Source: Rheinheimera sediminis | GTDB lineage: Bacteria; Pseudomonadota; Gammaproteobacteria; Enterobacterales; Alteromonadaceae | DNA: 52,005 bases | Direction: 5' to 3' | NCBI RefSeq assembly: GCF_004005375.1 | Contig: NZ_RZUF01000026.1 | Location: 1-52,005 of the forward strand | Shown here: positions 2,242-47,348 of the stretch, piece after piece | How the letters are laid out: each line of letters opens with the position of its first letter | How positions within the stretch are numbered: the first letter of the stretch is position 1 | Made by a program: the position numbers and the translations under genes | The notes under the pieces: model-generated | What the model was told of the DNA's origin: nothing | Seen by the model: the letters and a program-made list of their open reading frames with translations, nothing else | The model's database searches: none

Positions 2242-2940
2242 TTACTTGATATAAGCAAAAGCATCAGCAAACATCTGCTCTCGTTTAGCACCTTGCTCCA
2301 GAAATGCGTCTCTTACAACTCCTACCATAGGGAAAGGACCTGCTATATAGATATCATAGGCTTCCAACGAGACAAAATCTTCCAGTACGGCTTGGTGCAC
2401 TAAGCCTGAACGGCCTTGCCAGATATCGGATGGACTTTGTACTACTGGCACCAGTTTAAAGTCATGATGAGCAGAGGCCCACTGTTGCAGTTCAGGCATA
2501 TGGTACAAGGATTCTTCGTGACGTACACCCCAGTATAAAAATACTGGTCTTTTTACGCCTGCAGCTGCTATCGCCTGTGCAATGCTGTACACATAAGAAA
2601 ATCCGGTACCACCGGCCAGTAACAAAATAGGATTATGGCTGTCCTCGCGCCAGAACGCCTGACCTAAACCTACCTCTACTGTCACTTGATCATTACTTTG
2701 TAGGTGTGTCAGCGCCTGACCTGAATACTGGTCTGCTACTGCACCGCCAATTTGCAACTCCAGCTGTGCCTGTCCGGGAATAGACGCGACAGAAAAAGGC
2801 CGCTTGTCTTGCTCTGTTAAGCACAATTGCAAATATTGGCCTGGTTTAAACTCCACTTTTTGTTGTGGTGTCAGCAGAACCTGATGTACTCCAGAGGTTA
2901 ACGGCTGAATTTTATCGACGGTACAAATCACTTTGGTCAT
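2242..2940 (-). CDS. fre: NAD(P)H-flavin reductase (Fre/LuxG family)
   Basis: 232-aa ferredoxin-NADP reductase-fold enzyme that reduces free FMN/FAD with NAD(P)H. The flavin-binding RPFS motif is at residues 47-50, the nucleotide-binding GGTGFS at 110-115, and a C-terminal IAGPFPMV near 205. Length and order match E. coli Fre (233 aa). It is the last gene of a ubiD-ferredoxin-fre transcription unit, 15 bases after the ferredoxin gene. Reduced FMN is the substrate of UbiX, which makes the prenyl-FMN cofactor of UbiD, so co-location with ubiD makes metabolic sense (inference). With the neighbouring ferredoxin it may also act as an electron-transfer reductase. Confidence 0.9.
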   Translation of the reverse strand: MTKVICTVDKIQPLTSGVHQVLLTPQQKVEFKPGQYLQLCLTEQDKRPFSVASIPGQAQLELQIGGAVADQYSGQALTHLQSNDQVTVEVGLGQAFWREDSHNPILLLAGGTGFSYVYSIAQAIAAAGVKRPVFLYWGVRHEESLYHMPELQQWASAHHDFKLVPVVQSPSDIWQGRSGLVHQAVLEDFVSLEAYDIYIAGPFPMVGVVRDAFLEQGAKREQMFADAFAYIK

Positions 2941-2955
2941 GAATAATCCTGCGGC

Positions 2956-3234
2956 CTAGCCACGAATAAAAGGGTGGTGTAAGGTCAAATCTGACTCGGC
3001 ATAAGCCAGACAACAATAAGTAAAGTTTTGCGCTTTATCCAGATCAGACAAAGGTTCTGGTGGCAGATAGGACACAGTACCAGAGCGCAGACGACAAACA
3101 CAGGAGGTGCACACGCCCTGTTTGCAACGAAACGGAAAGTCGATGCCATGGCGCAGCGCTGCATCGAGTATTGTTTCATTAGTCTCTACCTGAAAGCTCA
3201 GGCCACTGGGTAATACTGTTACCTGATGACTCAT
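2956..3234 (-). CDS. small plant-type [2Fe-2S] ferredoxin
   Basis: 92-aa soluble ferredoxin. The cluster ligands follow the plant-type pattern C-x4-C-x2-C...C: Cys37, Cys42, Cys45, with Cys74 or Cys75 as the fourth. The N-terminal half has the beta-grasp pattern ([17 protein letters not shown]). Its ATG overlaps the ubiD stop codon by 4 nt (ATGA), so translation is coupled. Together with the flavin reductase next door it makes up the parts of a fused class I oxygenase reductase (ferredoxin plus FAD/NAD domains) but split into two chains. The electron acceptor is unknown. Confidence 0.88.
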
Positions 3235-4742
3235 TTTTGGCCCGGTACTTTTAATGTGGGAACCGTTTTGTCTGCCGGTAATATACCCAGTTCGGCCCAG
3301 ATATTATCTACTTTAGCTTTGACTGCCGGATCCATCAGTATGGGTTCGCCCCATTCGCGAGTCGTTTCGCCTGGCCATTTATTCGTAGCATCTAAGCCCA
3401 TTTTGGAGCCAAGCCCCGATACAGGCGAAGCAAAGTCCAGATAATCAATGGGTGTATTTTCTATCAAGGTCGTATCACGCGCCGGGTCCATTCGGGTGGT
3501 GATAGCCCAAATCACATCCTGCCAGTCGCGGGCATTGATATCGTCATCGCAGACAATAACGAATTTGGTGTACATAAACTGCCGCAGGAAAGACCAGACG
3601 CCCATCATCACGCGTTTAGCATGGCCAGGATATTGTTTCTTCATAGTGACTACGGCCATACGGTAGGAGCAGCCTTCAGGCGGTAAATAAAAATCGACAA
3701 TTTCCGGAAATTGTTTTTGCAAAATAGGCACAAAAACTTCGTTTAATGCCACACCTAAAATCGCTGGTTCATCAGGTGGACGGCCAGTGTACGTACTATG
3801 ATAAATCGGATTTTCTCTGTGGGTGATATGAGTCACAGTAAATACCGGAAAGGAATCCACTTCGTTGTAATAACCCGTGTGATCACCATAAGGACCTTCA
3901 GGCGCCATTTCGCCTGCTTCTATGTAACCTTCCAACACATACTCAGCGCTGGCTGGTACTTGTAAATCGTTGCTGATACAACGGGTTACTTCGGTATTGT
4001 CACCCCGCAATAAACCAGCAAAAGCGTATTCAGACAAGGTATCTGGCACAGGAGTGACTGCGCCTAAAATCGTGGCAGGGTCGGCGCCTAAGGCGACTGA
4101 GACCGGAAAACGCTGGCCTGGATTGGCTTTTTGCCATTCTAAAAAGTCCAAGGCGCCACCACGATGGGATAACCAGCGCATAATAACTTTATTTTTACCC
4201 AATACTTGCTGACGATAAATACCCAGATTTTGCCGCTCTTTATGTGGGCCTCGGGTTACTGTTAAACCCCAGGTAATCAAAGGCGCTGCATCGCCTGGCC
4301 AACAGGTCATCACAGGTATTTTGCTTAAATCAACTTTATCGCCAGAAAGTACTACTTGCTGACAAGGAGCTCGCTTCACTTCTTTGGCTGGCATATTCAG
4401 TACTTGTTTGAAAATAGAGAACTTGCTGAACGCGTCTTTTAAACCTTTTGGTGGTTCAGGCTCTTTCAAAAAAGCCAGCAACTTACCCACTTCACGTAAG
4501 GCGGCTACGTCAGTTTGACCCATGCCCAGAGCAACGCGCTCTGGGGTGCCGAATAAGTTAGCAAGCACCGGAACATCAAAACCTTTTGGCTTTTCAAATA
4601 ACAAAGCAGGACCGCCAGCACGTAAAGTGCGGTCAGCTATTTCGGTCATTTCCAGATAAGGGTCGATTTCCATCGAAATTCGTTTGAGCAATCCACGTTG
4701 CTCAAGCTGACTGATAAAGTCACGCAGGTCTTTGTATTTCAT
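3231..4742 (-). CDS. ubiD: 4-hydroxy-3-polyprenylbenzoate decarboxylase UbiD
   Basis: 503-aa prenyl-FMN-dependent decarboxylase of ubiquinone synthesis; close to E. coli UbiD (497 aa). Cofactor and catalytic motifs are present: NLGIYRQQ at 172-179 (Arg177), and [12 protein letters not shown] with Glu282, Asp287, His288. The ATG start gives the usual [11 protein letters not shown] terminus. First gene of the unit with ferredoxin and fre. UbiX is not in this window. Confidence 0.95.
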
Positions 4743-39903: not shown

Positions 39904-40280
39904 TGGCCATTGTTGGTTTAGGCACCGACATTATTGAAATAGCGCGCATAGAGCAAAGTCTGGCGCGCTCGCCCCGTTTAGTGCAAAGGGTACTGACTGA
40001 AACCGAGCAGCAAATCTTAGCTGCTCATGGCCAGCCAGCCCGTTATTTTGCCAAACGTTTTGCGGCTAAAGAAGCCGCCGCCAAAGCCCTTGGCACCGGC
40101 ATAGGCCGCGGTATTTCCTTTCAACATTTTAGTATCAGCAACGACCCTTCTGGTCGCCCTCAACTTGAACTGATAGGTCCGGCCAAAGAGCTGGCCGATT
40201 CGATGCAAGTACGTTCAGTCTGGCTTTCGATAAGCGACGAGCAGGCCTATGCCTGTGCTACCGTTATTTTAGAATCTTAA
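39903..40280 (+). CDS. acpS: holo-[acyl-carrier-protein] synthase
   Basis: 125-aa 4'-phosphopantetheinyl transferase for ACP. Mg2+ site GLGTDIIEIARIE (Asp9) and FAAKEAAAKALGTGIG (Glu near 58) are present. Last gene of the lepA operon. Confidence 0.97.
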   Translation: MAIVGLGTDIIEIARIEQSLARSPRLVQRVLTETEQQILAAHGQPARYFAKRFAAKEAAAKALGTGIGRGISFQHFSISNDPSGRPQLELIGPAKELADSMQVRSVWLSISDEQAYACATVILES

Positions 40281-40285
40281 CCTGT

Positions 40286-40313
40286 GCGGGCGGGGATAAA
40301 CCCGCGACCCTAC
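40286..40313. repeat. GC-rich hairpin after acpS
   Basis: GCGGG-gataaa-CCCGC core within gcgggcggggataaacccgc, followed by GACCCTACC. Same outline as the hairpin at 5-25 (GC-rich stem then ccctac). Could end the lepA-acpS transcript or be a REP-like element. Confidence 0.4.
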
Positions 40314-40340
40314 CAATTTCCTGCCTAATTAGGGTATAAG

Positions 40341-40368
40341 TACTTCACTTACGGCAGGAGTTGAAGTA
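40341..40368 (+). promoter_or_regulatory. RBS-presenting hairpin before borosin methyltransferase
   Basis: TACTTCA (40341-40347) pairs with TGAAGTA (40362-40368). The 14-nt loop carries the RBS AGGAG (40356-40360), and the start codon follows one base after the stem. Suggests translational control. Confidence 0.5.
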
Positions 40369-40369
40369 A

Positions 40370-41164
40370 ATGCAAAAAGGCAGTTTAGTTTGTGTAGGCA
40401 CTGGTATGACTTTGGGTTCTCATATCAGTCCTTTATGCCGCAGTTATATTGAACAAGCCGATGTGGTTTTTGTACTGGTCGCCGATGGCACTACTGAGCT
40501 GTGGATCCAAGGCATGAATGCCGATGTGCGTAGCTTGCAGCCTTATTATTCTGAAGGCCAGTCCCGTATGATCACCTATAAACAAATGGTGGCGGCTATG
40601 CTGGCTGAAGTGCGGCTAGGCAAAAAAGTCTGTGGTGCTTTTTATGGCCATCCCGGCGTCTTTGCCTGGGTGCCGCATCAGGCTATTAAAGAAGCGGTAG
40701 CTGAAGGTTATATGGCTCATATGGAACCCGGTATTTCAGCCGAAGATTGTTTGTATGCTGATTTGGGTTTAGACCCAGGAACCTATGGTTGCCAGCATTA
40801 TGAAGCCAGCAATCTGATGTTTTATCAGCGCACTATAGACACTACTGCTTATTTAATTTTATGGCAAATAGGAGTAGCTGGTGATAAGTCGCTGGCTAAA
40901 TTTACTACAGGCAGTGCCTATCGCGACGTCCTGGTAGAGCTGTTAAGCCAATGGTATCCGCTGGATCATCAGGTGATTTTATACGAAGCCGTTACTTTAC
41001 CTATTCAACAACCCCGTATCGAGCGTATCCCTTTGTCTGACTTACCTCAAGCACAAATGGATTTAAAAACGACCTTAGTTATACCGCCGGCCACTGTAGC
41101 TAAAGCCAATCAGCTGGTTTTGGACAAATTAAAAGCTGTAGTGGCGCAAGAAGGTCTGGTATGA
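40370..41164 (+). CDS. borosin-type peptide backbone alpha-N-methyltransferase (SonM-like)
   Basis: 264-aa SAM-dependent methyltransferase of the tetrapyrrole-methylase fold. It follows Shewanella SonM from end to end as far as I can recall that sequence: GSLVCVGTGM, SRSYIE-type helix, YGHPGVFAWV, MEPGISAEDCLYADLG, WYPLDHQVILYEA, PRIERIPLSDLPQA. Candidate catalytic Tyr59/60, Arg66 and Tyr70 match the Tyr-Arg-Tyr set of OphMA/SonM. Such enzymes methylate backbone amides of a partner peptide in trans. AGGAG nine bases upstream. Overlaps a GNAT gene by 4 nt; a SonA-like precursor lies 649 bp downstream. Cobalamin methylases share the fold, but no cob genes are present. Confidence 0.88.
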   Translation: MQKGSLVCVGTGMTLGSHISPLCRSYIEQADVVFVLVADGTTELWIQGMNADVRSLQPYYSEGQSRMITYKQMVAAMLAEVRLGKKVCGAFYGHPGVFAWVPHQAIKEAVAEGYMAHMEPGISAEDCLYADLGLDPGTYGCQHYEASNLMFYQRTIDTTAYLILWQIGVAGDKSLAKFTTGSAYRDVLVELLSQWYPLDHQVILYEAVTLPIQQPRIERIPLSDLPQAQMDLKTTLVIPPATVAKANQLVLDKLKAVVAQEGLV

Positions 41165-41676
41165 CAGCGGGCTGGGCTAAAGCTGCTGTTGCAGATAACT
41201 TTGTGATCCAAACACCGCGCTTATTGATCCGGCCTTTAGCTGCAGAAGATCAACAGCTGTATCTGGATTTATATACAGACCCGGCCACTATGCGTTTTAT
41301 CAGCCCGGCGTTTGCAAATCAAAAAGCTCTGGAGAGTTTCCGGATTGCCGTAAGGCTCAACCAAAAAGCACCTTTTAAGCGGTTGTTTCTGGCCATACTG
41401 GAACAAGGCGAGGCTGCTGGTATTTGCGCTATTAGCCAATGGCAGGCAGAAGATGCCACAGTCGAACTTGGATTGATGTTAAAGCAGCCATGGCATGCCA
41501 ATGGGTACGCAGTGGAATCTTTTTCTGCCTTAATCCAAAGGGTTGGTCACTGTTTTGATGGCGCTAACATTTGGGTGGACATAGACCCTGCCAACATAGC
41601 TGCTGTGAAGGTGGCTATCAAAACCGGTTTCAGGCCAGATGCCGCTCATCCCAGAGTGTTTTGGCTTAATGCGTAA
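41161..41676 (+). CDS. GNAT family N-acetyltransferase (RimJ-like)
   Basis: 171-aa acetyltransferase. TPRLLIRPLAAEDQQLYLDLY at the N terminus, ELGLMLKQPWHANGYAVES as the acetyl-CoA motif region (degenerate Q/R-x2-G-x-G/A), and NIAAVKVAIKTGF near the C terminus. ATG overlaps the methyltransferase stop by 4 nt, so the two are co-translated. Substrate unknown. It may tailor the borosin peptide or simply share the operon. Confidence 0.8.
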   Translation: MTAGWAKAAVADNFVIQTPRLLIRPLAAEDQQLYLDLYTDPATMRFISPAFANQKALESFRIAVRLNQKAPFKRLFLAILEQGEAAGICAISQWQAEDATVELGLMLKQPWHANGYAVESFSALIQRVGHCFDGANIWVDIDPANIAAVKVAIKTGFRPDAAHPRVFWLNA

Positions 41677-41812
41677 CGTACATTCTTAAATTGAAACTTT
41701 GCGTCGATACTGCCGCCCTTGTGCTTTTATTTTTATCGTTTTAAAGTGGGTTTAACGTGCTTACGTTATCTGCATCAGGTTGCTGATGTTTTTATACAAT
41801 TCAGGGGGTCTT

Positions 41813-42076
41813 GTGTCAGTGATTATCAGTTTATTAGAAAAGATGGGCCAGAATGCCGGTTTACGTTATGCCAATGCTGAACAATTAGTGGAGCTGATGG
41901 CGGAGACTGATCCTGCATTGATTTCAGCTGTTATCTGTGGAGACCAAGCAAAACTCGAAGCAATTTTAGGAGCCAGAACTAACGTAGTTTGTGGGGTACA
42001 TCCAGCAGAAGAACCACAAGAAAACGAACCTGAAGATGAATCTGAAGACGCTCAAGAAAAGATAAAAATAGCATGA
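41813..42076 (+). CDS. split-borosin precursor peptide (SonA-like)
   Basis: 87-aa protein. GTG start at 41813 with GGGGG 4 bases upstream; the resulting MSVIISLLEKMGQNAGL aligns without gaps to the SonA N terminus (MS...LGQDAQL type). Residues 1-53 form the helical borosin-binding domain (ANAEQLVELMAETDPALISA, then ICGDQAKLEAILG). The tail departs from SonA: N57-V-V-C-G-V-H-P64 is the likely modified core, followed by 10 Glu/Asp in residues 66-82 and KIKIA. It sits 136 bp after the GNAT and 14 bp before a diguanylate cyclase. Identity as precursor rests on domain likeness and the SonM-like neighbour. Confidence 0.8.
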   Translation: MSVIISLLEKMGQNAGLRYANAEQLVELMAETDPALISAVICGDQAKLEAILGARTNVVCGVHPAEEPQENEPEDESEDAQEKIKIA

Positions 42077-42089
42077 TTATCGAACCATA

Positions 42090-43838
42090 ATGAATGTTCT
42101 TGTGATGTTTGGATTAAAGAAACAAAGACGATACGCTATGTTTTTGTTTCTTTTACTTTATGGCTTTTCGCTAAACGCGCAGAGTGTGGTGTCCGATCTC
42201 TCTTATTTAGATTCCATCAAAAGTACAAATTTTGAAAAATTTGAGTCTGAATTGGCTCGTTTAGAAGAAATTCATCATAAATTTCAAAAAGAAGAGTTAG
42301 ATTATTTTTTATTTTTGAAAGCCTATTCGTTGACATTTAAAGGTCAAAATCAGGAAGCTCTTTCGTTAATCATTCCACTTTTGGAATCGAAAAGTGAAAC
42401 TGTCATTGGATTTCGCGCCAAGTCACTGGCCGTCAATACATTGCTATTGTCACGGCGATATCTAGAGGCGTTTACCTACCTTGAACAGTTAATCGTAACA
42501 CTACCTCTGATTGAGCAGCCTATGGCCAGAGAGCATGGGTTACGTGTCATAGCTATGATGTATAACCTGATTGGCAGATACGATCTGGCATTAAGTTATC
42601 TTGATCAGTTAATAAATGAACGGCCAAGTATTAATGCTGTGTGTGCAGCGCATCAGTTAAGAAGTGAAGCTCTTTTTCATTCTGGCCAAAGTGAAGATTT
42701 TGAACAAAAATCAGCCGAGGGTCTGAAGTATTGCATCAAACATGAACAGCTTTTGTGGGTAAATATTATCGTGTCTTTTCAGGCAAGAAACATGATTGCC
42801 AAAGAAGATTACACTCAAGCGATTAACGTATTAACAGCACATTATTCCCAGGTTGAACAAACTCGTTATGCAACCTTGGTACGCGAATTTGACAGCCTTC
42901 TGGCTCAGTCTTATCACAAATCCGGACAAACAGCTACGGCAAAGCAGTATGTGGTTAAGGCAGAAAATAGTCTCCATACAGCTACATCAAATCTTACTCA
43001 GGTTGAAATACTTTTACTTTTGTCTCAAATTGCTAAAACCGAAAAAAATTACCAACAAGCTTTGGATTATCACGAACAATATACCGCAGCTTTCACTGCT
43101 TATATGGATGATAAGTCGGCACAACAAATGGCTTACCATACAGCTCATTCGGAAATTCTGGCGCAGAATCAAAAAATTGCGCTGCTGGATAAAGACAATC
43201 AATTGCTGCAGTACGAGCAGACAGCGCTTAAGCATCAGGCCGCTTTTAACAAGTTGCTGATTATCGCTTTAGCTATTCTGGTGTTGGGTCTTGCCTTTAT
43301 GGCTTACCGCAGTTTTGTAGCCAGGCAAAGGTTTAAAGCTCTGGCCGAATACGATGATTTAACCGCTATTAGTAACAGATATCACTTTTCTGCTTCAGCC
43401 AAAGAAGCGCTGGCTTTGTGTGAAAAGGGCCAGTTACCCGCCGCGCTTATCGTGTTTGATTTAGACCATTTTAAACAAATAAACGACCAGCATGGCCATG
43501 CGGCAGGCGATTGGGCTTTGCGGCAGACGGTCGATACCTGCCGTAACTTTATGCGCAATAATGATGTGTTTGGCCGTATTGGTGGTGAAGAGTTTGCCAT
43601 CTTATTACCTGGTTGCCAAAGTGATAAGGCGCACTTATTGGCAGATATTTGTCGTGATGCCATTCACACTATAGATACTGCAGCTTCGGGTTATGAGTTT
43701 AAATTAAGCGCCAGTTTTGGCGTCACTTCTGCAGAAATTTCTGGCTATCATTTAACCAAGTTGATTGAAGACGCCGACACAGCCATGTATCAGGCAAAAC
43801 AACAAGGACGGAACAAAGTCCAATTCTTTCGGGGGTGA
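42090..43838 (+). CDS. TPR-sensor diguanylate cyclase (GGDEF)
   Basis: 582-aa membrane enzyme making c-di-GMP. Signal-like N terminus (basic KKQRRYA then FLFLLLYGFSLNAQS), periplasmic helical TPR-like repeats (~40-355), coiled coil (~360-390), transmembrane helix ~394-412, cytosolic GGDEF domain with active GGEEF and an inhibitory RxxD site (RNND) five residues upstream. Start uncertain: ATG 42090, 42105 or 42138, none with a good RBS. It lies 14 bp after the borosin precursor, possibly in one transcript. Confidence 0.9.
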   Translation: MNVLVMFGLKKQRRYAMFLFLLLYGFSLNAQSVVSDLSYLDSIKSTNFEKFESELARLEEIHHKFQKEELDYFLFLKAYSLTFKGQNQEALSLIIPLLESKSETVIGFRAKSLAVNTLLLSRRYLEAFTYLEQLIVTLPLIEQPMAREHGLRVIAMMYNLIGRYDLALSYLDQLINERPSINAVCAAHQLRSEALFHSGQSEDFEQKSAEGLKYCIKHEQLLWVNIIVSFQARNMIAKEDYTQAINVLTAHYSQVEQTRYATLVREFDSLLAQSYHKSGQTATAKQYVVKAENSLHTATSNLTQVEILLLLSQIAKTEKNYQQALDYHEQYTAAFTAYMDDKSAQQMAYHTAHSEILAQNQKIALLDKDNQLLQYEQTALKHQAAFNKLLIIALAILVLGLAFMAYRSFVARQRFKALAEYDDLTAISNRYHFSASAKEALALCEKGQLPAALIVFDLDHFKQINDQHGHAAGDWALRQTVDTCRNFMRNNDVFGRIGGEEFAILLPGCQSDKAHLLADICRDAIHTIDTAASGYEFKLSASFGVTSAEISGYHLTKLIEDADTAMYQAKQQGRNKVQFFRG

Positions 43839-43879
43839 TCTGGTAGCACTATTGAATCTTTGAATTGTTTCGATGTCAG

Positions 43880-43904
43880 AAACTCCGGTTTTACATCGGA
43901 GTTT
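43880..43904 (+). promoter_or_regulatory. hairpin sequestering the RBS of the TonB-like gene
   Basis: Perfect 8-bp stem AAACTCCG (43880-43887) / CGGAGTTT (43897-43904), 9-nt loop. The GGAG RBS (43898-43901) of the next gene is inside the 3' arm, and TTTT follows. May double as weak terminator of the cyclase gene. Confidence 0.55.
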
Positions 43905-43908
43905 TGCT

Positions 43909-44577
43909 GTGAAGATATGGATATTTTCTGTTGTAGTTCATCTGCTGTTGCTGTGGGCGCTGTCCTTTGTTGTGATCTCAACGCCTGAAAAGCCCGCAGC
44001 ATCAGTTGTGATTCAGAGTTACAGCTACAGCCCGATCCGCGCTAAACCAGAGCCCGCAGTTATTCCAGAGCCGCGCTCTGTCATTGAAACTAAAACGCCA
44101 GAGTCGGCACTATCGGCTAAAAAGCAGATATCTAAAAAAGCCAGAGTCTTAGAAACCACTGTGGCTATTGGGGCAATTGAAACAACCTCAAAGGTGAAGA
44201 GTAAATCAGACACTAAGGTAGCTGATACAAAACCAGCCCAAGTCACAGCTTCATTGCCGCTGGCAGAGCGCGCTTTAGCTTCTGTGACAGCTAAAGCCTC
44301 AGAGCCAATGACAGAGTGGAACCAACAACGCGAGGTGGTGGTCAGATCCATCAATCCGGTCGATACTGCTCTTGCGCCTGATATGTTTAAACCAGTAAAA
44401 GCCTTTACCGACGGTAGTTCGTTGGTTAAGGCGCATGGGGTCTGTTGGAGAGTTCCGCCTCCTGCAGCAGGTAAAAATGCAATCTGGTTATTTGCAGGTG
44501 TATCCTGCAATGACGACACCAAGGTCGACCAAATCAACGACATTTTGCAGAAACGTCGCACTTACGCTAAAGATTAG
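43909..44577 (+). CDS. membrane-anchored TonB-like proline-rich protein, function unknown
   Basis: 222-aa protein with one N-terminal transmembrane helix (residues ~4-24), then a Pro/Lys/Ala-rich spacer as in TonB-type energy transducers, and a C-terminal region with two Cys (HGVCWRVPPP and AGVSCNDD) not typical of TonB. No ExbB/ExbD nearby. Start taken as GTG 43909 with GGAG seven bases upstream; an in-frame ATG at 43873 lies inside the hairpin and lacks an RBS. Overlaps the convergent barA end by 4 nt. Confidence 0.65.
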   Translation: MKIWIFSVVVHLLLLWALSFVVISTPEKPAASVVIQSYSYSPIRAKPEPAVIPEPRSVIETKTPESALSAKKQISKKARVLETTVAIGAIETTSKVKSKSDTKVADTKPAQVTASLPLAERALASVTAKASEPMTEWNQQREVVVRSINPVDTALAPDMFKPVKAFTDGSSLVKAHGVCWRVPPPAAGKNAIWLFAGVSCNDDTKVDQINDILQKRRTYAKD

Positions 44578-47348
44578 CCTGGTACTTTTGTTGCTGCTGG
44601 CTCTGTGACCAATGGTGGCCAATCTTTCGCATCCTGCAATAAAGATTGGATCCTGTCCTGCAGTTCAAACAACTCAGGCTCCAGTTGTTCAGCTTGTTTA
44701 CCTTTTTTCAGTTCAGTTTCAATCAGTTCTGTCAGTTGCTTCAGTACTGGCAGGCCAGTGTAGCAGCTGGCTCCATGCAGTTTATGGATATGTTGCAGCA
44801 GTTGTTCGGCGTCCTGTTGTTGCATTGCTTGCTGAATAAGCGCCAGACTGTCAGGCAAAGACTGTACCAGCATCCATAACATTTCTTTGGCTAAATCCAG
44901 TTTACCGCCGGCTCTTTGCAAAGCCAGAGTCCAGTCCAATTGTTTGCTCTGTGGCAGCTGGTTTTCACCAACAGAAGCTGCTGTTGCTTGCTGAAAGTCC
45001 GGGCAGCATTCGCGCAAGGTATAATGCAGTAATTTTTCATCCAGAGGTTTGGTTAAAAACTCACAAAATCCCAGAGCTAACAGCCTGTCTCTTTCACCCT
45101 CCAGAGCATGAGCCGTCACCGCAATGATCGGAGTGGCTTCATTCAGTGAGCTTTGCTGAATACGTTGGCAGGCCTGAATGCCGTCCATCACCGGCATATT
45201 AATATCCATAAAAATCAGGTCGTAATGCTGCTGGTTAGCCTTTTGCCAAGCCTCAGCACCATTGTGGGCTGAATCGACCTGTTCTACCATTTCAGACAGC
45301 AGGGTATTAATGAGTTTTAAGTTGGCTTCGTTATCGTCCACTGATAGCACCCGCAAGCGGGCTTTAGGTTTGTCCTGCAATTGGTTTTGCTCAGGGAAGT
45401 CCAAATAAGGCTGCGCCAAAGTCATCGCCAGTTTGCGGTAATGCGCAGGTTTGGATAACACAGCTTTTGCACCTGAGGCTTGTAATACCTCACGTAAGTT
45501 TGGCGACAAGGTATTGACCAGTAAATACAATTGCTCGCTGTGAAGCTGCAACTGCTGCAGTAACTCGATCACCTGATTCACCTGGTTCAATGAAATTGAA
45601 CGACCAATCAAGGCCATATCAATTCTTGGCTGCAAAACCAGAGTCTGGCTTAACTGACTCATATTGCTGCAACTTATTATATTCATACCCCAGTGATCGA
45701 GCTGCGCCAGCATAGCCTCACGAGAATACTGCTGAGGTTCAAAGTACAATACTGTTTTTTGCTTCAGCTCTGTCAAAGGCAAAGGCTCTGCTATAGATAA
45801 ATGATGGCGTTTGCACAGCAAAGTAAACCAGAAGGTCGACCCTTCGCCTGCTTTACTCTCAAAGCCAATCTTGCCACCCATAGCTGTCACTAAGCGCTGC
45901 GAAATGACTAAACCTAAACCTGTGCCGCCATAACGACGGCCTATGCTGTTGTCGGCCTGAGCAAAACCACCAAACAAGCTTTTCTGTTGGTCTTCCTGAA
46001 TACCAATGCCGGTATCCTGCACTGAGAATCTTAGTTGCCATTGTTCATCTGGCATGGGGCGGCAACTGACGCGGATCACCACACTGCCTTGCTCGGTAAA
46101 CTTAATGGCATTGCCGGCTATATTGGTCAAAATTTGGTTGATCCGCATGGGGTCGGCAATTAAATCGTCCGGACAGCTATTTTCTATCAACAAGACCAGT
46201 TCAAGTTGTTTATCAAAGGCATTAGACGCCAGCAATTCAACGCAATCGTTTAATAAATCACGCAACGAAAAAGGTTCGGGGTTAATCGGCATCCGGCCTT
46301 CTTCCAGTTTGGCGTAATCCAACACGTCGTTGACCAAGCTGAGTAAACTATTGGCTGACTTTTGAATAGTAGCCAGATAATCCTGCTGGTTATGGGTCAG
46401 GTTAGTTTTTAACAATTGCCTGGCGAAACCAATAACAGCGTTGAGAGGTGTGCGTAATTCATGACTCATTTTAGCGAGGAAATCGGATTTGCTGCGGTTA
46501 TCTTCCATCGCCTTTTTGCGGGATAGGTCCAGCTCGATGTTTTGCATCTCCAGCTGTTCCATACTTTGTTGTAAGTCGCTGGTTGCCTGCTCAATACTTT
46601 GCTGCATTTCTTCGTCATGGGTTTTCAGTGCAGTGGCCAATGCATTAATACCAGAGCGTAACTGTTCCAGTTCGCCTAAAAAGGGCTGTTGCAACTGACT
46701 TTGGTACTGGCCCTCCCGCAGTTGGTCTATGACATCACCCATCTGTCGCAGGGGCTGACTGACTTTTTTGATTAGACGTAAACTGAAATACAGGCAAGCG
46801 GCAAGGCCGAATAAAATCATCATCAAACTGCTAAGCAAAGAGGTTTGTTGTGCCAACATCACTTTGTCTTTGGCTACTTGTACTGCTATGTAACCTAAAG
46901 GCTGATCAGCAGGTGCAGTGCTGAAGTCTGCTTGTTCAGGTAAAATAGGCGTGCGGATCACCAGCCAGTTGCCCATGTCTGTAATGGTACTTTGCTGCGG
47001 AATAGCGCTGTCTGGCGCATATTTCAGCATGGCAAAGTCTTTATGATAATTGGTCGTGACAAAGAGCTCGTGGTCGGCATTAAAAATAGCGATACTTTTT
47101 ACCAGCGCTGAGTTTTTTCTGTGGCTGACATCCAGCAGACGTTTGACGTCTTGTCTACTGTTGTGTAATAAAGCATGCTCGCTGGCAATAGCTAATGGGA
47201 CAGCAATGTTTTCAGCCTGATCTTCCAGATACTGGGCTAAATCATGATGGCGGGCATAGCTAAAATAACCCCCAAGGCATAAACTGACCAGTAAGGTCGG
47301 CACCAGGGTAGTCAATAAGACCCAATCTCTTAAACCAATTTTCGTCAT
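44574..47348 (-). CDS. barA: hybrid sensor histidine kinase BarA
   Basis: ~924-aa membrane kinase controlling the BarA/UvrY(GacA)-Csr switch between growth modes. Order: transmembrane helix ~12-30, periplasmic domain, second helix ~175-195, HAMP, HisKA with SHELRTPLNAVIGF, HATPase with GTGLGLVISQ, degenerate receiver, intact receiver with phospho-Asp in LIFMDINMPVMDG, and HPt with HKLHGASCYTG. Same multi-domain layout as E. coli BarA (918 aa). ATG 47348 gives MTKIGLRDW; a start three codons earlier is possible. Confidence 0.95.
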   Translation of the reverse strand: MTKIGLRDWVLLTTLVPTLLVSLCLGGYFSYARHHDLAQYLEDQAENIAVPLAIASEHALLHNSRQDVKRLLDVSHRKNSALVKSIAIFNADHELFVTTNYHKDFAMLKYAPDSAIPQQSTITDMGNWLVIRTPILPEQADFSTAPADQPLGYIAVQVAKDKVMLAQQTSLLSSLMMILFGLAACLYFSLRLIKKVSQPLRQMGDVIDQLREGQYQSQLQQPFLGELEQLRSGINALATALKTHDEEMQQSIEQATSDLQQSMEQLEMQNIELDLSRKKAMEDNRSKSDFLAKMSHELRTPLNAVIGFARQLLKTNLTHNQQDYLATIQKSANSLLSLVNDVLDYAKLEEGRMPINPEPFSLRDLLNDCVELLASNAFDKQLELVLLIENSCPDDLIADPMRINQILTNIAGNAIKFTEQGSVVIRVSCRPMPDEQWQLRFSVQDTGIGIQEDQQKSLFGGFAQADNSIGRRYGGTGLGLVISQRLVTAMGGKIGFESKAGEGSTFWFTLLCKRHHLSIAEPLPLTELKQKTVLYFEPQQYSREAMLAQLDHWGMNIISCSNMSQLSQTLVLQPRIDMALIGRSISLNQVNQVIELLQQLQLHSEQLYLLVNTLSPNLREVLQASGAKAVLSKPAHYRKLAMTLAQPYLDFPEQNQLQDKPKARLRVLSVDDNEANLKLINTLLSEMVEQVDSAHNGAEAWQKANQQHYDLIFMDINMPVMDGIQACQRIQQSSLNEATPIIAVTAHALEGERDRLLALGFCEFLTKPLDEKLLHYTLRECCPDFQQATAASVGENQLPQSKQLDWTLALQRAGGKLDLAKEMLWMLVQSLPDSLALIQQAMQQQDAEQLLQHIHKLHGASCYTGLPVLKQLTELIETELKKGKQAEQLEPELFELQDRIQSLLQDAKDWPPLVTEPAATKVPG

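Follow-up and report, generated by a model that had tools for sequence, protein, structure and literature searches.

A Split-Borosin Cassette of Rheinheimera sediminis with a Constant TPR-GGDEF Partner Gene

The Locus

The window, i.e., the whole stretch of DNA analysed here (52,005 nucleotides from Rheinheimera sediminis), carries a row of four genes on one strand, whose features are collected in Table 1. The first encodes a methyltransferase, the second a GNAT acetyltransferase, the third a small precursor peptide and the fourth a protein that combines TPR and GGDEF domains. The GNAT gene overlaps the stop of the methyltransferase gene by 4 bases, and the TPR-GGDEF gene begins 13 nt past the precursor stop. 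The GTG start of the precursor is preceded by a purine-rich stretch (AGGGGG), and close relatives of the precursor have ATG at the same position. A promoter scan of positions 40200–44650 found 1 site against 7.6 expected, and terminator-like sites numbered 7 against 4.4 expected. An earlier note on this DNA had described methyltransferase and precursor as a split pair acting in trans, and this is how they are arranged: the two proteins are encoded separately and close by, with the GNAT gene between them. The TPR-GGDEF gene, which that note had missed, belongs to the unit.

Table 1. Genes and protein regions of the cassette in the window.
Feature	Position	Strand	Details
SonM-like peptide backbone (alpha-N) methyltransferase (putative), 264 aa	40370..41164	+	catalytic Tyr60, Arg66, Tyr70, Tyr92
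GNAT acetyltransferase (Acetyltransf_3), 171 aa	41161..41676	+	Pfam 3.5e-19
Split-borosin precursor, 87 aa	41813..42076	+	GTG start at 41813
Borosin binding domain (BBD), precursor residues 1–53	41813..41971	+	helices 3–13, 15–19, 22–28, 34–41, 45–52
Predicted core TNVVCGVHP, precursor residues 56–64	41978..42004	+	
Acidic C-terminal tail, precursor residues 65–87	42005..42073	+	SonA is without such a tail
Signal peptide-TPR-transmembrane helix-GGDEF diguanylate cyclase (putative), 582 aa	42090..43838	+	Pfam GGDEF 4e-42
TPR superhelix, residues 33–317, predicted periplasmic	42186..43040	+	
Predicted transmembrane helix, residues 389–406	43254..43307	+	by eye from hydrophobicity; LLIIALAILVLGLAFMAY
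GGDEF domain, residues 419–576	43344..43817	+	GGEEF 498–502, RxxD I-site 489–492; Pfam range

The Methyltransferase

Judged by its sequence, the 264-residue protein is a SonM-type peptide backbone N-methyltransferase. It is 54.7% identical to SonM over 254 amino acids (BLAST, 2e-101), and the SonM motifs that the earlier note had quoted are all present in its reading frame. When it was compared with all PDB chains by phmmer, 25 of the 25 matches at E ≤ 0.001 were borosin methyltransferases, led by SonM (2e-86) and followed by fungal borosin enzymes only (OphMA and dbOphM, 8e-51 to 4e-47; MroMA, 9e-44); no corrin methylase or RsmI was among these 25. The protein falls into the Pfam family TP_methylase (1e-16), to which two further proteins of the host genome belong: L227 (490 aa) and L228 (296 aa), which, by their lengths, are probably siroheme synthase and RsmI, respectively. 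Pairwise BLAST against these two, which took in all long open reading frames of both loci, gave no E-value better than 0.4. A grouping with cobalt-precorrin or RsmI-type enzymes, which the earlier note had named as the outcome that would speak against its assignment, is not what was found (0.4 against 2e-101 for SonM), and an identity as corrin or rRNA methylase was ruled out.

The catalytic Tyr/Arg/Tyr set proposed in the same note is likewise in place (Y59/Y60, R66, Y70), and Y92 can be added to it. In the alignment, Y60, R66, Y70 and Y92 correspond to Y58, R67, Y71 and Y93 of SonM, residues named in passages of the SonM paper (PMC8429565), and all four columns, i.e., the three of the proposed set and that of Y92, are invariant among 38 aligned sequences.

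The Precursor

Searched alone, the 87-residue protein found no convincing chain in the PDB (best E 0.78), and Foldseek gave weak matches, the best being SonA (E 1.3). A profile built from 48 of its relatives did find SonA chains in the PDB (best 3e-6), in agreement with the earlier description of the protein as SonA-like. A WD-40 repeat protein gave the best single entry of that search; it reached 1.3e-7 only as a sum over stretches, none of which passes alone, and it was taken as a repeat artefact. Structural alignment places residues 4–66 onto residues 4–70 of SonA. The locus is a type-IV-like split borosin, a kind already known.

The core had been called distinct, and it is unlike that of SonA: SonA ends in YLVISHGNGD, whereas the precursor in the window has TNVVCGVHP, with a cysteine, followed by a 23-residue acidic tail. 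By analogy with L63 and I65 of SonA, methylation would most likely fall within VVCGV (residues 58–62). Among the relatives of the precursor, a block of the form hydrophobic-x-Cys-xx(x)-P-A-E/D recurs at the core, and it is retained in three loci in which the BBD is shortened (L043, L053, L075). A cysteine anywhere in residues 39–72 occurs in 92 of 101 precursors, a count that includes some cysteines outside the core. Of the 91 precursors that are at least 80 amino acids long, 88 have a net acidic tail; in L050 and L052 the tail is rich in lysine (KKK repeats) instead.

Several variations on the precursor were seen. In L031 (7375–7749), a single precursor of 125 amino acids combines two Cys-rich cores with a second, incomplete BBD-like stretch. 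Several Rheinheimera loci (L002:5705-5938, L004, L005, L007) have an additional precursor upstream of the methyltransferase; the window has none, the gap from acpS to the methyltransferase being 89 bases. In L183, the gap at 2600–3490 (minus strand) encodes a BBD-like precursor whose core is repeated in tandem about a dozen times (DAAIIKGYA/PDAAIIKGYA), which reads as a multi-core split borosin.

The TPR-GGDEF Protein

The AlphaFold2 model of the fourth protein has a mean pLDDT of 92. Judged by eye, the protein has a signal-peptide-like start and one hydrophobic helix. The GGEEF and RxxD columns are invariant or near-invariant in 40 aligned rows, and the diguanylate cyclase looks active, with active site and I-site apparently intact. 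In the TPR domain, Cys185 and Cys215 are invariant and likely form a disulfide. When the TPR model was compared with known structures, Rap/pheromone entries, RapF and NprR led the best TPR matches, tied with APPBP2 (VIA-align 2), which is a degron receptor and no pheromone receptor; high structural Z-scores among TPR proteins may be generic, and the sequence identity between Rap or NprR and the TPR part is 10–14% only. Within the host genome, the TPR part has exactly two matches at E ≤ 0.01, and these are the TPR-GGDEF genes of the cassette in the window and of a second cassette, whose TPR parts are 22% identical to each other.

This second cassette lies on another contig of the host genome (L087:3794-7223) and is also compact and on one strand, in the order GNAT, methyltransferase, precursor, TPR-GGDEF. 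Its methyltransferase is 64% identical to that in the window. The cassette adjoins what we take to be a MiaB-like gene, and only two fragments of a pepsin-like protease lie alongside.

The Cassette in Related Loci

Relatives of the methyltransferase were scanned in one genome per species, which gave 101 confirmed stretches, and the best 80 loci were taken. Of these 80 loci, 78 have a gene with the homologous TPR domain downstream, on the strand of the methyltransferase; in the other two (L036, L078) the contig ends at the methyltransferase. A GGDEF domain with the motif GG(D/E)EF is in the same frame in 76 of the 78 TPR genes, the remaining two (L032, L059), without visible GGDEF, being cut by contig ends. 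The TPR frame starts within 150 nt of the end of a precursor frame in 77 of 78 cases, and precursors were detected in 77 of the 80 loci (all but L036, L076 and L078). The TPR-GGDEF gene is the most constant neighbour found in the related loci; genes, homology, operon-like order, domain layout and this conserved pairing were all observed directly. In one genome of the same genus (L168, 4460–6587 against 3506–4531), methyltransferase and GNAT are divergent from precursor and TPR-GGDEF, so the order of the cassette is not fixed.

The earlier note had listed the GNAT gene as an extra. The gene is real, but an odd extra it is not: 68 of the 80 loci have a GNAT gene no more than 2.5 kb from the methyltransferase and on its strand, and in three (L050, L052, L075) methyltransferase and GNAT are fused into one protein. 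In Rheinheimera the GNAT gene separates methyltransferase and precursor, in Shewanella it precedes the methyltransferase, and it belongs to the cassette.

A survey of the neighbourhood covered frames of at least 110 amino acids and families present in at least 5 loci, of which the 25 largest were considered, without library-based names. The most widespread of these 25 is a pepsin-like gene, which occurs in 19 loci of five genera. Two others reach four genera, and one of the two is a GGDEF protein. In its 19 loci (L058:3445-5217 and 18 more, out of 80) the pepsin-like gene lies upstream of the cassette: it adjoins GNAT in L055 and in every one of the 15 loci from Shewanella, adjoins the methyltransferase in L043 and L075, and is 3.4 kb off in L053. 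In both examples scanned it is PF00026, and it resembles the shewasin pepsin homologues (PMC4814920, in the passages covered). The cassette in the window is without such a homologue, and neither an exporter nor a protease was recognised next to it. The shewasin-like aspartic protease is a candidate for removing leader or tail of the borosin, and such a role in maturation would be our inference; the words “operon” and “adjacent” are absent from PMC4814920.

The Order-Wide Survey

As an independent count, 295 genomes sampled evenly across the order were searched with two profiles, one for the methyltransferase and one for the TPR part only. The methyltransferase was found at 108 places in 71 genomes (E ≤ 1e-40) and the TPR part at 131 places in 69 genomes (E ≤ 1e-20), with both present in 63 of the 295 genomes (hypergeometric 7e-48, a figure that ignores kinship). 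A TPR match lies within 3 kb of the methyltransferase at 87 of the 108 places, at 86 of them on the same strand. When the remaining 21 places were fetched, 17 adjoined a weaker TPR gene, which brings the places that have a TPR gene next to the methyltransferase or no more than 3 kb away to 104 of 108. The four without are L193, where the contig ends about 750 nt downstream; L187, a fused enzyme of 643 amino acids; L183, the locus of the many-repeat precursor, in which no TPR gene was found; and L226, which is decayed. In L226 (3009–5972), an intact-looking set of GNAT, methyltransferase and two precursors stands with a GGDEF remnant of 98 amino acids and a pepsin-like fragment, apparently a case of a decaying receptor. 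From the side of the TPR gene, 108 of the 131 places are within 6 kb of a methyltransferase and 23 are away from any methyltransferase match.

The output domain varies. Among 20 of the 87 strong TPR places (L154–L173), the TPR gene has GGDEF in 17, with L156 counted among them, and stands as TPR only in 3 (L162–L164); in L176 it is joined to a kinase. Pfam scans covered 20 chosen proteins from the fetched loci, one of them the fused enzyme of L187 and the other 19 TPR proteins. Histidine-kinase domains occur in 10 and GGDEF in 3, and 6 are TPR only. Of the 10 with a histidine kinase, three have receiver domains and one also a weak Hpt match. Of 16 loci with a kinase or TPR-only receptor that were inspected by eye, 14 have small BBD-like open reading frames in the gap separating the methyltransferase from the TPR gene. 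The types of receptor are strongly clustered on the methyltransferase tree (5 changes for GGDEF against 27 in shuffles), a tree that was used for this clustering only and in which the loci numbered L0xx were labelled GGDEF. Two arrangements stand by themselves: in a genome of the Shewanella family (L156:1862-3631) TPR and GGDEF are two adjacent open frames, and in L162, L163 and L164 two to four TPR-only genes (about 355–375 aa) follow the methyltransferase, with the precursor upstream.

One genome, taken on this match as that of Shewanella oneidensis, has a methyltransferase 100% identical to SonM (254 residues), then the 71-residue SonA, then a TPR-GGDEF frame of 596 amino acids. Outside the order, distant borosin methyltransferases without a TPR neighbour were found (L220–L224), as were ones that do have it (L217, L218, L219, L225). 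Two viral contigs from IMG/VR (L194, L195) carry distant borosin-type methyltransferases (37–39% identity), and these have no TPR neighbour. The pairing thus marks a large clade and not all borosins.

Comparison with Known Systems

The nearest known system is SonM/SonA of Shewanella oneidensis, a type IV split borosin (Miller 2021, PMC8429565), with which the window shares the fold, the catalytic residues and a separate precursor with a five-helix BBD. It also shares the order of methyltransferase and precursor and, as found in this analysis, the TPR-GGDEF gene that follows. Besides core, tail and the level of identity (54.7%), it differs in the GNAT gene between methyltransferase and precursor. 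The word GGDEF is absent from the main text of the SonM paper. No link of borosins to diguanylate or tetratricopeptide was found in the literature searched; Imani 2022, Cho 2022 and Lee 2024 lie outside it and may mention the TPR neighbour. The earlier note held that known borosins are few, which finds no support: 11 types are distinguished in a 2024 paper, and clusters of type IV are widespread in bacteria according to a 2024 review. The passages covered do not state a biological role for bacterial split borosins.

A second likeness is to RRNPP quorum sensing (Rap-Phr, NprR-NprX), where, according to PMC10075063, a small propeptide gene adjoins the gene of a TPR receptor, as one adjoins the TPR gene in the window. 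The best matches of the TPR model include pheromone-bound Rap and NprR, at the low sequence identity given above. In contrast to the RRNPP systems described there, the window comes from a Gram-negative bacterium, its putative receptor is predicted to be periplasmic and membrane-bound, and the output is GGDEF or, in relatives, a kinase; the peptide, too, would differ in being backbone N-methylated.

The third is RcbAB of Vibrio vulnificus, in which, as would be the case in the window, an N-terminal TPR part controls a C-terminal GGDEF domain. The same layout is cited for diguanylate cyclases of V. parahaemolyticus with a periplasmic TPR part. RcbB, the TPR-GGDEF protein of V. vulnificus, is regulated by another TPR protein, RcbA. 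All this is from PMC12282931, in which “methyltransferase” and “methylase” are absent and borosins are unmentioned.

A Proposed Signal and Its Receptor

The unusual feature of the locus is its fixed receptor-like partner. As the outer part of this partner is predicted to resemble pheromone receptors, the methylated peptides may be signals, and as the TPR-GGDEF gene is the most constant neighbour, a cassette of peptide plus receptor is to be preferred to a bare natural-product pathway. The best single explanation of the locus is that one cassette both makes the peptide and senses it as a ligand, with an effect on c-di-GMP or a phosphorelay, a reading to which we give somewhat better than an even chance.

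For the sites of methylation, processing, export, topology and ligand binding, we infer the following course. The methyltransferase would very probably bind the precursor via its five-helix BBD and N-methylate backbone amides in TNVVCGVHP as SonM does in SonA; that the backbone of the precursor is methylated at all seems, from the sequences, near certain. GNAT might then acetylate the product or the precursor, for which the chances are about equal either way. A protease encoded elsewhere could cut off the leader and the acidic tail, in Shewanella and some Alteromonas-like relatives perhaps the pepsin-like enzyme of the shewasin family encoded upstream, a step that we regard as possible and rather short of even. 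The small N-methylated peptide would get to the periplasm via an exporter, or its N-methylation could ease passage through the membrane. There it may bind the TPR domain and change the activity of the cytoplasmic GGDEF domain and, with it, the level of c-di-GMP. Other clades have, at this position, a TPR module that is either by itself or coupled to a histidine kinase. Several results weigh against the reading as a whole: cores and TPR parts show no co-variation beyond shared history, 23 TPR places are away from any methyltransferase match, distant borosin methyltransferases (L220–L224, L194, L195) have no TPR neighbour, RcbB is a TPR-GGDEF protein with another partner, APPBP2 ties with Rap, no exporter or protease was recognised beside the cassette, and in 11 loci there is one receptor to two precursor hits.

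Alternative Explanations

Most of the remaining weight, although the chance is small (about one in five in our judgement), goes to an ordinary split borosin with an outward role, e.g., antimicrobial or metal-binding, whose production the TPR-GGDEF protein controls or coordinates with surface life without binding any peptide. Borosins count as natural products, GGDEF proteins are widespread among bacteria, and the core cysteine with the acidic tail would suit metal binding. Also in keeping with it, the distances among cores do not co-vary with those among TPR parts beyond shared history (partial rank correlation −0.06, given methyltransferase distance). Such a role accounts poorly for a TPR gene that follows, without a change of strand, in 78 of the 80 loci and for TPR-kinases in the same place in distant clades. 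It also sits uneasily with numbers of precursors and receptors that are partly parallel: 9 of the 20 loci with at least two precursor hits have at least two TPR genes (among them L009, L010, L011, L024, L035, L040 and L041), against 3 of the 57 with one hit. There are also 11 loci with two precursor hits and a single receptor; some of the hits counted for L033 and L064 are fragments.

It is less probable still, and unlikely, that the precursor itself or its BBD, methylated or not, is the partner of the TPR protein and that no small peptide need be released. TPR domains typically take helical protein ligands, and distances among TPR parts are followed more closely by those among BBDs (0.34) than by those among cores (−0.06); in a first run, before the rank-based one with a GNAT control, the value for BBD and TPR was 0.595. 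Much of this signal is explained by the GNAT control, however, which reached 0.24 in the same rank-based distance test. Furthermore, a signal peptide is seen by eye on the TPR protein and none on the precursor, and the core motif outlasts a shortened BBD.

A unit of toxin and immunity, with a peptide directed against competitors and a TPR protein that gives protection or recognises self, would be in line with the several precursors per locus seen in Rhodanobacter-like genomes, where L041 has as many as five hits. We hold it to be very improbable: enzymatic, intact-looking GGDEF or kinase outputs suit signalling, and no neighbour family extends over more than five genera among the 25 largest, unnamed families of frames of at least 110 amino acids. 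A tetrapyrrole or rRNA methylase beside an unrelated small reading frame, suggested by the family name TP_methylase, can be given practically no chance in view of PDB matches that are borosin enzymes in 25 of 25 cases, E-values of at least 0.4 against L227 and L228, and a precursor profile that finds SonA.

Significance

The reading of the peptide as a ligand, sensed by the TPR protein beside it, may extend beyond the window. We consider it an even bet that the split borosins of the large clade, SonM-SonA included, are not antibiotics but backbone-N-methylated signals with adjacent periplasmic TPR receptors, and that the output of these receptors is exchangeable (diguanylate cyclase, histidine kinase, hybrid kinase), so that they would form a Gram-negative counterpart resembling RRNPP. 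Since the receptor-like gene is fixed beside the biosynthetic genes over many genera and also stands next to sonA, the question can be tested in Shewanella oneidensis: does the peptide derived from SonA bind the neighbouring TPR-diguanylate cyclase and shift c-di-GMP? If it does, Gram-negative bacteria would have a peptide signalling family of their own, based on backbone N-methylation.
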